Below are positions 7,906 to 29,044 of a stretch of 43,258 nt of DNA, one piece after another. A program made the translations under genes and the position numbers. The notes under the pieces were generated by a model, which did no database searches, was not told the DNA's origin, and saw only the letters and a program-made list of their open reading frames with translations. Every line of letters starts with the position of its first letter. The stretch's first letter is position 1. Origin of the DNA: a bacterium CG_4_9_14_3_um_filter_65_15 (GTDB lineage: Bacteria; Krumholzibacteriota; Krumholzibacteriia; LZORAL124-64-63). The stretch spans positions 1 through 43,258 of the forward strand of contig PFVX01000088.1 of assembly GCA_002790835.1 (NCBI GenBank), in the 5' to 3' direction.

Positions 7906-9477
7906 TCAGGAGGGGGTGCGGCGCAGGAGCATCAAGGTCACGTCGTCGGACGGGGGGTTTCCTTTGAGGAAATCCCTGACGGAGGAGAAAGCCTCATCGC
8001 AAATCCGGTCCAGGGGCCGGCCTTTCCCGGAGGCCAACGTATCCCGGAGGGTCTGCAGGCCGAGAAAGTCCTCGCCGTCCAAGGTGGCCTCGGGAATCCC
8101 GTCGCTGAAAAAGGCGAGCAGGTCACCGGGTTCGAGGGTGGCCTGTTCCATGATCCATTGGGAATCAGGCAGCAGGGCGACCGGCGGCCCCGTCGGGCCC
8201 AAGCGGTCGAGGCGTCCGTTGGCGCGGGCGATCAGCGGCGGCTCGTGCCCCGCATTGACATAGGTCAACGCGCCGGTCTCCGGATCCAGCTCCCCGAGGA
8301 ACAGCGTGATGAACTGCTCGGGCGCCAGGTTTTCCCATAGCTGGCGGTGGATGAGGTTGACGATGGCGTCGACCTGGCTGCTGATCTCCCCGAGAGTTGA
8401 TATCAACAGCATGCAGGCGGACATGGCTAGGGCCGCGGGTATGCCCTTGCCGGCCACGTCGCCCACCGCCACGAGCAGGGTGTCCCGGTTGCGTGTCATG
8501 GCGTGGTAGAGGTCCCCGCCCACGGCACGACACATATCCAGCCGGGCATGGAGTTCGTAGCCGGAGACGATGGGCAGGGCAGAGGGCAGCAGGGCGCGTT
8601 GGATGCGCGAGGCGGTCGCCAGTTCTCGATCCAGGCTCCGGTTGTGCAGCTTGACGCCCACCGCGTTGGCGGTGGCCGTCAGGATCTGGAGCTCGACCTC
8701 ACCGAAGAAGGTTCCGGGTTGGGCCGTGTCCACGTAGAGGATGCCCCGCACGCGGCGGTTGTCGAACAGGGGCACAGCCATGGCCGAACAGAGGTTCAGG
8801 GCCAGCATGCTTTCGCTGGGCGGCGAACTGGCCTCGCGCACGTCGCGCAGCAGGACGCTGGTGCGTCCGGCCATGACCCTGCTGACGATGTTGCTGCTGA
8901 GCAGGACATCGGCGGTGGCCTCTTTCGTTCTGGTCCAGGACCCGACCTTCTCCAGGGTCGTGCCCTCGCCGCTGTCCTCCAGCATGACGATCCGGTCGGC
9001 GCTCACCAATTCGGATATGAAGGCGCAGGCCTTGTCCTCGAGGCTGTCGTCCTCGGCGGTAAGCAGTTCGAACAGCCCGGACAGGGCGCCCATGATGCGG
9101 GATCCGGCCGCGGGGCTGACCCCGCTGGCGGGATCGTAAGTGCCGTGGATCGTCATATTATCCGCGTTATCCTGAGGGGAAGCGGGGTCAAGGGACCTGC
9201 GCAGGGTGACTCCTCCGAGAATCAGCGTTGATCCAGGGGGAACCTCGAGCTCACCCTGGGCGGGCAGGATGGGTGAGCCGTCCAGTTCCGTCCCGTTCAG
9301 GGAACCCAGGTCGGAGACGAACAGCCGGGATCCGTCCACCCGCAGCCGGGCGTGGCGGCCGCTGACCTGGGGGTCGGTGAGTCGGACGGAGGATTGGGGG
9401 GCGCGACCGACGAGATGGATGCCGTCGGCCAGCTTCAGAGGTGTGGTGTGCCCGCCTTGTTCGATGATCAGGTCCAT
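7906..9477 (-). CDS. FHA-GAF-SpoIIE/PP2C family serine phosphatase
   Basis: This 523-residue cytoplasmic protein has three modules. An FHA domain (about 20-95) shows VGRAPQSS, SGRH and GSLNGTEL, the phosphothreonine-binding residues. A GAF-type sensor domain covers about 135-275. A SpoIIE/RsbU-type PP2C phosphatase (about 300-520) retains the metal-binding aspartates in VGGD (near 322), VGDVAGKG, SDG and SDDVT, so it should be catalytic, although the usual DYYD is DLYH. The start at 9477 is preferred because GGAAGG lies nine bases upstream. The gene converges on the kinase operon, and an FHA domain would let it read kinase-made phosphothreonine. Targets could be the kinase, its substrates or an anti-sigma antagonist. 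The target is inferred, the domains are seen. Confidence 0.92.
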   Translation of the reverse strand: MDLIIEQGGHTTPLKLADGIHLVGRAPQSSVRLTDPQVSGRHARLRVDGSRLFVSDLGSLNGTELDGSPILPAQGELEVPPGSTLILGGVTLRRSLDPASPQDNADNMTIHGTYDPASGVSPAAGSRIMGALSGLFELLTAEDDSLEDKACAFISELVSADRIVMLEDSGEGTTLEKVGSWTRTKEATADVLLSSNIVSRVMAGRTSVLLRDVREASSPPSESMLALNLCSAMAVPLFDNRRVRGILYVDTAQPGTFFGEVELQILTATANAVGVKLHNRSLDRELATASRIQRALLPSALPIVSGYELHARLDMCRAVGGDLYHAMTRNRDTLLVAVGDVAGKGIPAALAMSACMLLISTLGEISSQVDAIVNLIHRQLWENLAPEQFITLFLGELDPETGALTYVNAGHEPPLIARANGRLDRLGPTGPPVALLPDSQWIMEQATLEPGDLLAFFSDGIPEATLDGEDFLGLQTLRDTLASGKGRPLDRICDEAFSSVRDFLKGNPPSDDVTLMLLRRTPS

Positions 9478-9571: not shown

Positions 9572-10024
9572 TCAGCCACCTCCCCTGATGGCGTTGACCA
9601 TCTGGTCGAGCTGCTGCAGGAAAAGGGACCGGTCCTTGGCGGAAAACGGCGGTGGGCCGCCCAGCATGACGCCCTGGTCGCGGAGCCGGCTGAGCAACTG
9701 GCGGGTGGCCAGGGCGCCGGACACATTGTCGTCGGTGAACGGTTTGCCGGAATGCCCGAGCACGCGAGCGCCCTTGTCCAGGCAGCGGGCGGCCAGGGGG
9801 ATGTCGCCTGTGATGACGATGTCATCCTCGCAGGCATGTTCAGCGATCCAGTTGTCGGACTCGTCGAGCCCCTTATCCACAACCACCAGCTTGATTTCGC
9901 CCTCGCCGGTGATGCGCATGTGGCTGTTGGCCACCAGGGTCACCGGCAGGCCGTAGCGCCGGGCGACCTTGTAGACCTCGCTCTTGACGGGGCAGGCATC
10001 GGCGTCGACGTAGATATGGAGCAT
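9572..10024 (-). CDS. UPF0178 (YaiI/YqxD, DUF188) family protein
   Basis: This 150-residue cytoplasmic protein belongs to the UPF0178 family, which has a PIN-like fold and an uncharacterised role. It starts MLHIYVDADACPVK, the diagnostic N-terminus with paired aspartates, continues with VVDKGLDESDNWIAEHA and VITGDIPLAARCL, and ends in a GGPPPFSAKDRS-type tail. AGGGAAG upstream on the minus strand is the ribosome binding site. It lies 94 bases before the phosphatase gene on the same strand and could be transcribed with it, though nothing links their functions. Confidence 0.93.
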   Translation of the reverse strand: MLHIYVDADACPVKSEVYKVARRYGLPVTLVANSHMRITGEGEIKLVVVDKGLDESDNWIAEHACEDDIVITGDIPLAARCLDKGARVLGHSGKPFTDDNVSGALATRQLLSRLRDQGVMLGGPPPFSAKDRSLFLQQLDQMVNAIRGGG

Positions 10025-24910: not shown

Positions 24911-26359
24911 TCACTGCCCGATGAGCACGGGCATCCCCATCCAGGGCCAGATCTTCCACACGAACAGGGCCAGGACGGCCAGCAGCATGAGGCTTGGCGG
25001 TATGCCGTAGAGGAAGAATTCCCGCGTCCGGAACTGACCGCTTTCGAAGGCGATGGCGTTGGGCGCGGCGCCGACCAGCAGCATGAAGGGCATGCCGGCG
25101 GCGGCCAGGGCGGCGAACATGACGATTTCGGGCTCGACGCCGATGAACCGCGCCATGACCAGGGCCACCGGCAGGGTGATGGCGATGGCGGCCACGTTCA
25201 TGATGAAGTTGGTCATCACCAGCACGAAGAACGCGATCCCCATGATGAACACCAGCCAGGGCGCTTGTTTGAACCAGGACAGCCAGCCGATGGCCAACCA
25301 CTCGGCCGCGCCGGTCTGCCAGAGACAGAATCCGATGCTCATGGCGCCGCCGAACAGCAGCACGATGTTCCAGGGCACCGCTTCGAGGTCCTTGATGTTG
25401 AGGATGTCGAGCATGAAGAAGAGCATGACCGCCGACAGGATGATGGCGCTTTTGTTGATGTGACCCAGGGCGGGCACGAAGGCGCGCAGGCTCAGGGCCG
25501 CAACCACCGCGACGGTGATGACGAGGGTGGCCAGCTCCCGTTTGGTCATCCGCCCCAGTTGATCGGCCAACCCGCGGGCCTTGGTCTTCAGGCCGGGCAG
25601 CCGCGTGCGTTCGGGGGGAAAGGCCAGGCAGACGTAGCCCCACAGCAGAATCACCATCAACGCGCCCAGGGGCAGCATGAAGCGGGTCACCTCGAAGAAC
25701 GAGATCTCCTGGCCGGTCAACTCCTTGAAAAACCCGATGGCCACGGCGCCTCGCGCGGCGCCCAGCAGGGTGATGATGGATCCTGCGCCCGCGGTCCAGG
25801 CCATGCCGATGAACAGGCCCTTGCCGAAGACGGTCCGGTGCCCGGCCGGCTCGTACAGGCCGTGGACGACCAGCAGCAGGGGAAACAGGGCGGCGGCCAC
25901 GGCGGTGTGGGCCATGAAGAGGGTCAGGAAGGACGTCAGCCCGAAGGCGCCGAGGTAGATGAGGCGCGTGTCCTCGGAGATGTGCGACAGCACGAGGAAG
26001 GCCAGGCGCCGGGTCAGGCCCGTCTTGATGAAGGCCGCGCCGATGAGCAGGGAGCCGAAGATGAACCACACCGAGGGATCCATGAAGTCGGTCAAGGCGG
26101 TGCGGGAGTCCCGGATCAGCCACAGCGACTGGACCACTCCGATGCCGATGGCGGTGATGCCCACGGGCACGACCTCGAACACCCACCAGATGCCCGCCAG
26201 CAGGAATAGGCCCAGGGCGGCCTTGCCCTCGTGGCTGAGCAGGACGGGGTTGCCGTGGGGGTCGGTCACGGGAGGGAAGTCGGGAGCGGCCAGGATGACG
26301 ATGAAGGTGCCCAGGCCGAACAGGAAAGGGATGAGGCGTTTTCGCGAGCGAAAAATCAT
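24911..26359 (-). CDS. SLC13/DASS family sodium-coupled anion transporter
   Basis: This 482-residue inner-membrane protein has about a dozen hydrophobic segments and the DASS outline: a cytoplasmic N-terminus, WVFEVVPVGITAIGI, a first hairpin with FMAHTAVAAALFP and a second with MTNFIMNVAAIAITLP, followed by GAAPNAIAFESG. Relatives move dicarboxylates, citrate or sulfate with sodium. The two SNT substrate/sodium motifs of well-studied members read AHT and MNV here, so substrate or coupling may differ. Its ATG overlaps the stop of the methyltransferase gene by four bases, so the two are one operon. Confidence 0.9.
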   Translation of the reverse strand: MIFRSRKRLIPFLFGLGTFIVILAAPDFPPVTDPHGNPVLLSHEGKAALGLFLLAGIWWVFEVVPVGITAIGIGVVQSLWLIRDSRTALTDFMDPSVWFIFGSLLIGAAFIKTGLTRRLAFLVLSHISEDTRLIYLGAFGLTSFLTLFMAHTAVAAALFPLLLVVHGLYEPAGHRTVFGKGLFIGMAWTAGAGSIITLLGAARGAVAIGFFKELTGQEISFFEVTRFMLPLGALMVILLWGYVCLAFPPERTRLPGLKTKARGLADQLGRMTKRELATLVITVAVVAALSLRAFVPALGHINKSAIILSAVMLFFMLDILNIKDLEAVPWNIVLLFGGAMSIGFCLWQTGAAEWLAIGWLSWFKQAPWLVFIMGIAFFVLVMTNFIMNVAAIAITLPVALVMARFIGVEPEIVMFAALAAAGMPFMLLVGAAPNAIAFESGQFRTREFFLYGIPPSLMLLAVLALFVWKIWPWMGMPVLIGQ

Positions 26360-27282
26360 GCGGCTCCGTGGTCCCTTTCAGCGGCCCTGCGGCGGGTGAT
26401 CACCAGGGGGAACTCCAGCTGGGGATCGACGCCCGTGACCGGCGGATGACGCATCGGCTCGATGAGGCCGCAAGCGGCCAGCATGGCGTCGAGATCCTCG
26501 TCGCTCCAACCCTGGTGACATTGGCAATACTCCTGGAGGTTACCTGAATCGATCTCCAAGATCCAGTGCGCATGGGATTCGGTGACCGCATCGGCATGCC
26601 AGACGAAATCCTGAAGCCAAAGATGAGGCTGGTCGCTGAATGGCGAACGGCGGACCAGGTCCCAGGTGGAGTCGCCGTCGGTGACGAACTGGTCCAGGGG
26701 CTGGTACTCCAGGACGAACAGGCCGCCCGGGCGCAACAGCGCCGCCAGAAGGGCGATGATGCCGGGGACCCTGGCCGCGGAAAACCCGTGGAAGTCGCCG
26801 AACCACCAGGTCACCGCGTCGAAAGGCACGCCGAACGTTTCGGCCGGATCTGCGGGAAGCTGGGTCAGATCGAGGTCCAGAAACCGGCAATCGAGGTTTT
26901 GTTCCGCCGCGATCCGGCGCGCGTACTCCAGGGCGGCCGGCGCGATGTCCAGGCCGGTGCTGTGGTGGCCGCGGCGAGCCAGCTCGTGGCCGTAAAGGCC
27001 GGGCCCACAACCGACGTCCAGGATGCGCCAGGGGCCGGGGTGGCCGGGCAGCAGGGCGCCCATGGTCTGCAGCAGCCAGTCGACGTGGGCGGTGACCACC
27101 TCGGGCCGCCGGGTGCCCCGGTCGGTTTCCGGATCCAGATGGACCTCCAGCATGCGGCGGCTGAATTCGGGGTCTGACCAGGGAATGGGCGCGGGGCCGG
27201 ACCACGGCCGCATATGCTGCCGGGCCTGGTCGATGCGACGCAGGGCGCGGGTGTGCTTGTTGGCGAACGGCGACAGCCGCAT
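26356..27282 (-). CDS. Class I SAM-dependent methyltransferase
   Basis: This 308-residue cytoplasmic protein has a Rossmann methyltransferase core. The SAM-binding LDVGCGPGLYG lies at 88-98, the acidic end of strand two at TGLDIAP, a motif II region at FDAVTWWFGD, and LLRPGGLFVLEY marks motif III. The last 100 residues form a cap with several Trp and His residues, likely involved in the substrate site. The substrate is unknown. GGAG lies about nine bases ahead of the start. It is the first gene of a two-gene operon with the DASS transporter, so its substrate might be a small organic acid or a related molecule, but this is weak inference. Confidence 0.85.
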   Translation of the reverse strand: MRLSPFANKHTRALRRIDQARQHMRPWSGPAPIPWSDPEFSRRMLEVHLDPETDRGTRRPEVVTAHVDWLLQTMGALLPGHPGPWRILDVGCGPGLYGHELARRGHHSTGLDIAPAALEYARRIAAEQNLDCRFLDLDLTQLPADPAETFGVPFDAVTWWFGDFHGFSAARVPGIIALLAALLRPGGLFVLEYQPLDQFVTDGDSTWDLVRRSPFSDQPHLWLQDFVWHADAVTESHAHWILEIDSGNLQEYCQCHQGWSDEDLDAMLAACGLIEPMRHPPVTGVDPQLEFPLVITRRRAAERDHGAA

Positions 27283-27586
27283 GGTCGATGACTCCGCGCA
27301 GGGACAGGTTTGGTGCGAGCGAGTTATCCCCAGCCCGGCAGGCGCGGCAGGCGCGCGGCGCCCCGTCTGGAATGGGGGATTATGGGGATTCCCTCACGGG
27401 TTTTCCACCGAGAATCGGGATTATCCCCGGGTTTTTCTCCACCGCGGACGAGTTGTCCCGTGAGTTGTCCCCCCATTGTCCACAGGATTGTGGGCGGATG
27501 AGGGCGGGGAAGTTGGGGAATCGCCGTGGGCATGGTAAATTCATGAACCGAACCGCAGCCAGGACGATAGAGGATAGGCTTTGGAA
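27283..27586 (+). promoter_or_regulatory. Divergent intergenic region with DnaA-box-like repeats upstream of dnaB
   Basis: Within 161 bases seven 9-mers resemble the DnaA box TTATCCACA on the same strand: TTATCCCCA (27324), TTTTCCACC (27401), TTATCCCCG (27421), TTCTCCACC (27435), TTGTCCCGT (27453), TTGTCCCCC (27465) and TTGTCCACA (27476). The last three are spaced 12 and 11 bases, close to one helical turn. CGGGTTTTCCACCG (27397-27410) recurs as a near copy at 27428-27444. The region separates the divergent methyltransferase and dnaB genes. It could control dnaB, titrate DnaA or be part of a replication origin. No AT-rich unwinding element is obvious. Confidence 0.45.
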
Positions 27587-29044
27587 ATGAAATCCCAGCA
27601 GCACCAACCAGGCACCGCCGCAGCTGCGGCCGAGGAGCGGCGCGACCTGCATGCGGCCTTCGGCTACGATCAGTTGCCGCGGGACCGGCGCCCGCCGTAC
27701 AGCGAAGAGGCCGAACATGCGGTGCTCGGGGCGGTGATGGTGGATCGCGAGGCCGTCGGGCTGGCCCGCGAGCGGGTCACGCACTCCGATTTCTACCGCC
27801 TGGAGCACCAGATCACCTTCCGGGCCATGTGCCGCCTGTACGAGAACGACCAGGCCATCGACCCCATCACCGTGGCGGACATGCTGCAGAAGTCGGCCGA
27901 GGACTTCCTGGACAAGCGGCAGTTGCAGGCCCTGCGCGACCGCGACCTGTTGGACCTGGTGGGCGGCATGGATTTCCTCATCGATCTGGCCGGCATGATG
28001 GGCACCGCGGCCAACGTGCTCTTCCACGCGGGCATCGTGCGCGAGAAGTCGGTGCTTCGGCACCTGATCTCGGTATCTACCGGCATCGCGGGCGAGGCCT
28101 ACGAGGGGCGCGATGACGTCGAGGCCATTCTGGACCGGGCGCAGGGACGCATCTTCGAGATCAGTGAGCAGTCCGAGACCGAGGGCTTTTCGGGCGTCGA
28201 ACGCATCGTGCCCAAGACCTTCAAGTCCATCGAGGAAGCCTTCCAGAACAACTCCGACGTGACCGGGTTGCCCACCGGTTTCAAGGAGATGGATCGCAAG
28301 ACCGGCGGACTCCAGAAGGCCGATCTGGTCATCCTGGCCGCGCGTCCCTCCATGGGCAAGACCTCGCTGGCGCTGAACCTGGCCTACCACGTGGCCGTGA
28401 ACGAGGGCAAGTCGGTGGGTATCTTCAGCCTGGAGATGAGCCGCGAGCAACTCGTCATGCGGATGCTCGGCAGCAGCGCGGGGTTCAACCTGCACAACCT
28501 GCGGCGGGGCAAGCTGCGGGCCGAGGACTGGCCGCGGCTGACGGCGGCCTGTGAGCAGCTCTCGAAGGCGCCCATCTTCATCGACGACAACAGCGGCATC
28601 TCGGTGCTGGAGATGAAGGCCAAGGCCCGGCGCCTGAAGCAGCAGCACGGTCTGGACATGGTCATCATCGACTACCTGCAGCTGATGAGTTCGCCCGGGC
28701 GGCAGGAGAACCGGCAGCAGGAGATCTCCAACATCAGCCGGAATCTCAAGGGAATGGCCAAGGATCTGAACGTGCCGGTGCTGGCCCTGAGCCAGCTTTC
28801 GCGCGGCGTCGAGGCGCGCACCGAGCACCGGCCCATGCTGAGCGACCTGCGTGAGTCCGGCGCCATCGAGCAGGACGCCGACCTGGTGCTGTTCATCTTC
28901 CGCGAAGAGGTCTACAAGCCGGACGACGAGAGCGTCAGGAACATGGCCAAGATCATCATCGGCAAGCAGCGCAACGGACCCATCGGCGAATTCGATCTGC
29001 ACTTCCACAAGGAATTCACGCGCTTCGCCGACCTGGCGCGGTAG
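27587..29044 (+). CDS. dnaB: Replicative DNA helicase
   Basis: This 485-residue hexameric helicase unwinds DNA at the replication fork. The N-terminal primase-interacting domain (about 30-140) begins PPYSEEAEHAVLGAVM. A linker leads to the RecA-like domain with Walker A PSMGKTS (K258), FSLEMSREQL and Walker B VIIDYLQLM, and the C-terminal LRESGAIEQDADLV and GKQRNGPIG. No intein interrupts it. ATG at 27587 follows AGGATAGG by eight bases; a TTG six bases earlier is a less likely start. The upstream DnaA-box-like array is notable because DnaA loads DnaB. Confidence 0.97.
   Translation: MKSQQHQPGTAAAAAEERRDLHAAFGYDQLPRDRRPPYSEEAEHAVLGAVMVDREAVGLARERVTHSDFYRLEHQITFRAMCRLYENDQAIDPITVADMLQKSAEDFLDKRQLQALRDRDLLDLVGGMDFLIDLAGMMGTAANVLFHAGIVREKSVLRHLISVSTGIAGEAYEGRDDVEAILDRAQGRIFEISEQSETEGFSGVERIVPKTFKSIEEAFQNNSDVTGLPTGFKEMDRKTGGLQKADLVILAARPSMGKTSLALNLAYHVAVNEGKSVGIFSLEMSREQLVMRMLGSSAGFNLHNLRRGKLRAEDWPRLTAACEQLSKAPIFIDDNSGISVLEMKAKARRLKQQHGLDMVIIDYLQLMSSPGRQENRQQEISNISRNLKGMAKDLNVPVLALSQLSRGVEARTEHRPMLSDLRESGAIEQDADLVLFIFREEVYKPDDESVRNMAKIIIGKQRNGPIGEFDLHFHKEFTRFADLAR

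Follow-up and report, generated by a model that had tools for sequence, protein, structure and literature searches.

The region upstream of dnaB

The window analysed here is a stretch of 43,258 nucleotides from a bacterium of the Krumholzibacteriota, and corresponds to one contig (C66) of a 94-contig, 3.39-Mb assembly. Within it, the gene for the replicative helicase, dnaB, and a divergent gene for a SAM-dependent methyltransferase are separated by a gap of 298 bp (27283-27580), inside which sits a row of 9-mers resembling the DnaA box TTATCCACA (Table 1). The start codon of dnaB is TTG, and the start of its protein (M/L-E-M-K) is conserved. The methyltransferase is uncharacterised; almost all of the family loci read have it next to the array, and it is a possible co-target since the array reaches close to its start, box A lying 42 bp upstream. 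An Rfam search of the window returned no match to a structured RNA, and no plasmid relatives of the intergenic DNA were found.

Table 1. Genes, promoter elements and 9-mers around the gap, in window coordinates
Feature	Position	Strand	Distance from -10 (bp)	Sequence and remarks
SAM-dependent methyltransferase gene, divergent from dnaB	26356..27282	-		PF13649
Box A	27324..27332	+	209	TTATCCCCA (1 mismatch), DnaA-like
Degenerate slot	27380..27388	+	153	TTATGGGGA
Box C	27401..27409	+	132	TTTTCCACC, DnaA-like
Box D	27421..27429	+	112	TTATCCCCG, DnaA-like
9-mer off the lattice	27435..27443	+	98	TTCTCCACC (2 mismatches); neighbouring slot 101/102
Weak box	27453..27461	+	80	TTGTCCCGT (4 mismatches)
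Box E	27465..27473	+	68	TTGTCCCCC (3 mismatches), DnaA-like; paired with F, 2-bp gap
Box F	27476..27484	+	57	TTGTCCACA (1 mismatch), DnaA-like
Candidate -35	27513..27518	+		TTGGGG; 17-bp spacer to -10; by reading the sequence
Inferred dnaB promoter, extended -10	27533..27541	+		TGGTAAATT; TGnTAnnnT, constant spacing to box F among genomes
dnaB, replicative helicase	27581..29044	+		TIGR00665 541 bits, PF03796, PF00772

A consensus promoter scan flagged neither the candidate -35 nor the extended -10, and it is through conservation that the -10-like element is taken as a putative promoter, from which transcription of dnaB would start near 27548. The candidate -35 is a weak match, and relatives carry a similar TTGGGG, or TGACA.

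DnaA-like boxes were defined as having two or fewer mismatches to TTATCCACA, and a second pattern, TTNTCC, was also counted. By these rules the + strand of the gap holds five boxes and seven TTNTCC matches and the - strand none of either, with means of 0.21 and 0.40, respectively, in the shuffled gap and none of 10,000 shuffles reaching the observed counts. Every other 298-bp stretch of the window holds at most two boxes and at most four TTNTCC matches. The matches upstream of the dnaB promoter are thus beyond chance, and form a dense cluster of DnaA boxes outside oriC, made up in the window of weak boxes, the best of which have one mismatch to TTATCCACA. The original prediction had described seven same-strand 9-mers in 161 bases, the last three spaced by 12 and 11 bases, together with a duplicated CGGGTTTTCCACCG unit. 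All seven were confirmed in position on the + strand, as was the spacing of the last three (gaps of 3 and 2 bp), while the duplication proved approximate, the second copy being CGGGTTTTTCTCCACCG and 3 bases longer.

Conservation and phasing of the boxes among relatives

Among the close relatives of DnaB that carried a name, most came from Candidatus Krumholzibacteriota assemblies. The conservation sample comprised 30 dnaB upstream regions, from the window and from relatives (Candidatus Krumholzibacteriota), the genomes being metagenome assemblies. Boxes with two or fewer mismatches averaged 4.8 on the sense strand, 0.63 on the other strand and 0.41 in shuffles, and same-strand enrichment was individually significant (P<0.005) in 28 of the 30 regions. 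Boxes are therefore conserved at the orthologous dnaB promoter, and in about 12 relatives (L046, L048, L051, L026 and L058, for example) they include perfect copies of TTATCCACA. The slot of box F is occupied by TTATCCACA in many relatives and that of box D in L046, L051 and L058, and the slot of box A (209-211) is also occupied in L046, L048, L049, L051, L052 and L058. The degenerate slot of the window is filled at 153-155 in relatives by TTATCC-type boxes, TTATCCCCG or TTATCCACC, and the slot of the weak box at 27453 is occupied in several. Where a RhuM-family gene (PF13310, 384 bits; L047:1770-2948, genome G002) separates the dnaB promoter from dnaB, the array is displaced further upstream behind this gene, and its spacing to the promoter is still 58 bp. 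One locus remains an exception, the array being absent from the 829 bp upstream of dnaB on a 3.9-kb contig (L043, genome G020).

None of 55 dnaB upstream regions from other phyla had two boxes at one mismatch or fewer, and five further families of the same class (f2, f3, f4, f6 and f7) did not have the array. Family f5, also of this class, encodes a DnaB that is about 50% identical, and with anchors placed by eye its members range from L145, with TTATCCACA, CTCTCCACA and TGCTCCCCA at 69, 58 and 47 bp from the -10, through L033 and L034, with weaker boxes near the lattice slots and a partial fit, to L147, which fitted the lattice poorly.

A gapped multiple alignment of the upstream regions was smeared because of their length differences, and was replaced by anchoring without gaps, first on the last box and later on the -10. 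Box-to-box distances of 11, 20, 21, 33, 44, 55, 75, 77 and 88 bp recur across genomes, and the last box is followed downstream by a conserved extended -10 (TGnTAnnnT), sought 40-115 bp beyond the box chosen as last. In six genomes (L037, L040, L041, L044, L050 and L054) the last box was reassigned, after a first look, to a weaker one nearer the promoter; in L037 and L040 this nearer box fails the mismatch rule, and the nearest counted box is at 68-69. Measured from the -10, almost all of 129 boxes in 23 genomes fall on a lattice of about 10.9 bp, with slots at 47, 57/58, 68/69, 80/81, 90-92, 101-103, 112/113, 122/123, 132-134, 143-146, 153-155, 199, 209-212 and 220-222 bp. For a period of 10.9 bp the 129 boxes gave R=0.84 (maximum of a random-position control, 0.29), a value inflated, like the other statistics, by the relatedness of the genomes, which is corrected in part by retaining 10 genomes whose linkers are dissimilar (R=0.82). 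This R=0.82 was never matched in 5,000 trials in which the anchor was slid randomly per genome, and the plain two-mismatch rule (107 boxes) gave R=0.85. Genomes lacking a clean -10, which stood outside the anchored set, had boxes at 57-58, 68-69, 80, 102-103 and 112-114 with anchors placed by eye.

The distance from the last box to the -10 is mostly 57-58 bp, and is 47 bp, one turn shorter, in L048, L052 and L026; in L018 there is an additional box at 45 bp. Median pairwise identity over the 47-bp linker is 34%, and the distance from the -10 to the start codon varies widely. The helical phasing that had been proposed for the boxes ahead of dnaB is thus borne out by the lattice and by its conservation in relatives, which is far stronger than the single sequence could have told.

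DnaA, the origin and other boxes in the genome

The DnaA protein of this genome is intact, its Bac_DnaA_C domain scoring 96.6 bits, and RDHSTV in its domain IV aligns with RDHTTV in 8btg_A, a DnaA chain of solved structure. Domain IV is predicted to be of the kind that recognises TTATCCACA, which is also the sequence of the boxes at oriC. The gene lies on contig C32 in the order yidC-rnpA-dnaA-dnaN-recF-dciA, where yidC, rnpA, dnaN and recF were named by eye from their translations, and it is accompanied by three perfect TTATCCACA boxes just upstream, by AT-rich DNA (GC down to 27% per 30 bp upstream of dnaA) and by the cumulative-skew minimum of the contig. The likely oriC comprises L004:4699-4803, with these three boxes, and L004:6293-6513, and may be bipartite; about eight weak boxes were seen in the dnaA-dnaN interval. 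Just after recF lies a gene for a DciA-type helicase loader (L004:8883-9278, PF05258). The cumulative skew of the window has no minimum at 27.4 kb, and no AT-rich unwinding element was found in the window beside the array, the lowest value being 47.5% GC per 40 bp. Neither a skew minimum nor dnaA or another usual origin neighbour was found at the array. In a relative assembled in four contigs (G015), the skew in the sampled stretches was too weak to place the origin.

Exact copies of TTATCCACA number six in the 3.39-Mb genome, including the three at oriC. One further copy stands alone in the window at 9873-9881 (+), and two adjacent TTATCC 9-mers (9158-9175) are found 700 bp before it. The pair TTNTCCNC with a 2-bp gap occurs four times in the genome, at dnaB, in the dnaA-dnaN interval, in intergenic DNA on C90 and inside a gene on C3, and across relatives the dnaB promoter is its most recurrent location. 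Pair hits on C3, C84 and C93 were set aside as lying inside coding frames and resembling chance or coding repeats; that on C93 (L191:1500-1532) is a false match to a tandem 12-bp repeat, TTTTCCCCGTCG, in a coding frame. A second conserved cluster of DnaA boxes was seen in six genomes (L188:1369-1520, on C90 near 8147-8165 of this genome; also L196, L214, L215, L218 and L219) in the interval flanked by the genes for an M20 peptidase and an ACP-HpcH/HpaI fusion. In several of these a 2-bp-gap pair is followed by another box some 131-133 bp beyond it, and in L188 an AT-rich stretch lies between the boxes.

Regulation of dnaB by DnaA as the favoured explanation

We consider it probable, from the arrangement of the DNA, that the 161-bp element binds DnaA and serves as a regulatory array for the dnaB promoter, most likely an activating one. 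Binding of DnaA, its cooperativity and ATP dependence, the sign of its effect and its role in the cell cycle are all matters that we infer. DnaA would occupy the same-strand boxes head-to-tail on one face of the helix, with one slot every 10.9 bp or so. The E-F pair would be the anchor, and the array ends some 28 bp short of the -35. Box F, centred near -68, is fixed and in phase, a position resembling that of activators which touch polymerase from upstream, and from there DnaA could influence RNA polymerase at the putative TGnTAnnnT promoter. Transcription of dnaB would then be set by DnaA, most likely being raised as active DnaA climbs before initiation, and the supply of helicase would track the initiator that loads it.

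Activation would seem about twice as probable as repression, and is favoured because of the position of the array upstream and of precedents in two other groups. In M. tuberculosis and M. smegmatis, one of the five strongest DnaA sites lies ahead of dnaB, and in M. tuberculosis a mutant DnaA with reduced binding at this site is accompanied by under-expression of dnaB (PMC7738170). In Caulobacter crescentus, dnaB is reported among DnaA-dependent genes with predicted upstream DnaA boxes (PMC8203912, citing Hottes 2005). A link between DnaA and dnaB, which the original prediction took to be undescribed for this kind of lineage, is new for this lineage and not in general.

An alternative to which we give a smaller though real share of belief, and which overlaps with the favoured reading, is that DnaA bound at the array represses dnaB, or has the divergent methyltransferase gene as its main target. 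DnaA is capable of repressing as well as activating (PMC8203912), and both the closeness of box A to the methyltransferase start and the retention of this gene in nearly all family loci would suit such a role. However, the array ends before the dnaB -35 and -10, leaving both uncovered, its phase and its spacing are both tied to the dnaB -10, and known cases indicate that dnaB expression depends on DnaA.

It is improbable that the array is a site for DnaA titration or nucleotide exchange, like the DnaA-box clusters of B. subtilis, datA or DARS, lying by chance beside dnaB, transcription of which would not be its target. A row of many weak same-strand boxes does suit cooperative binding of ATP-DnaA, and a cluster away from dnaB exists in the one between the M20 peptidase and ACP-HpcH/HpaI genes. 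A sink, however, needs no promoter phase, and here the last box keeps its distance of 57/58 bp, or one turn less, through a nearly random linker. This fixed phase and distance through a drifting linker make a pure DnaA sink, as the original prediction had partly envisaged, less likely. Slimmer still is the chance that the sites belong to another regulator with a motif resembling TTNTCCMC; in GC-rich genomes many boxes are TTGTCCCC rather than TTATCCACA, but lower-GC relatives hold perfect TTATCCACA in the same slots, and TTATCCACA also marks oriC. That the array is the chromosomal origin or part of one, as the clustering of boxes had led the original prediction to consider, is ruled out for practical purposes by the location of dnaA, the three perfect boxes, the AT-rich DNA and the contig skew minimum on C32 and by the want of skew minimum and AT-rich stretch at the array.

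Regulation of dnaB by DnaA, the reading preferred here, has several partial parallels. In E. coli oriC, low-affinity arrays are made of head-to-tail weak boxes with 2-bp gaps and bind ATP-DnaA cooperatively; the dnaB array differs from these in having no unwinding element and in lying away from the origin, upstream of a promoter. DnaA of E. coli also prefers pairs of boxes with a 2- or 3-bp gap, and such double boxes share with the present ones both these gaps and the pairing of a strong box with a weak neighbour (PMC11317965), but they are a single pair whereas the dnaB array has several slots over about 165 bp. The parallel with mycobacteria is drawn on the location of the site and on dnaB expression, the site there being annotated at Rv0057 in a different phylum. 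Caulobacter shares predicted DnaA boxes upstream of dnaB with the present case, and in the passages of PMC8203912 consulted a same-strand, promoter-locked lattice is not described. Nor was a promoter-locked lattice of this kind found described in the open-licence literature, or anything for Krumholzibacteriota. Thus, while control of dnaB by DnaA is already known elsewhere, the long promoter-locked lattice appears to be new.

A more tentative extension, which we hold as possible but rather doubtful, is that DnaA forms one continuous head-to-tail filament over about 15 helical turns, and that dnaB output reads active DnaA in a graded or switch-like manner. If true, this would place initiator activity and helicase supply on one dial, and an uncultured phylum would have maintained, over deep time, a circuit dedicated to linking initiator and helicase.

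The array offers a natural, sequence-only case for distinguishing DnaA in the role of transcription factor from DnaA at an origin, because the spacing to the promoter is kept to about 1 base while the linker drifts. Taken with Caulobacter and mycobacteria, it suggests that control of the replicative helicase gene by the initiator recurs in distant phyla, and the encoding of the DciA loader beside recF raises the question of whether bacteria of this kind are limited in initiation by their supply of dnaB.
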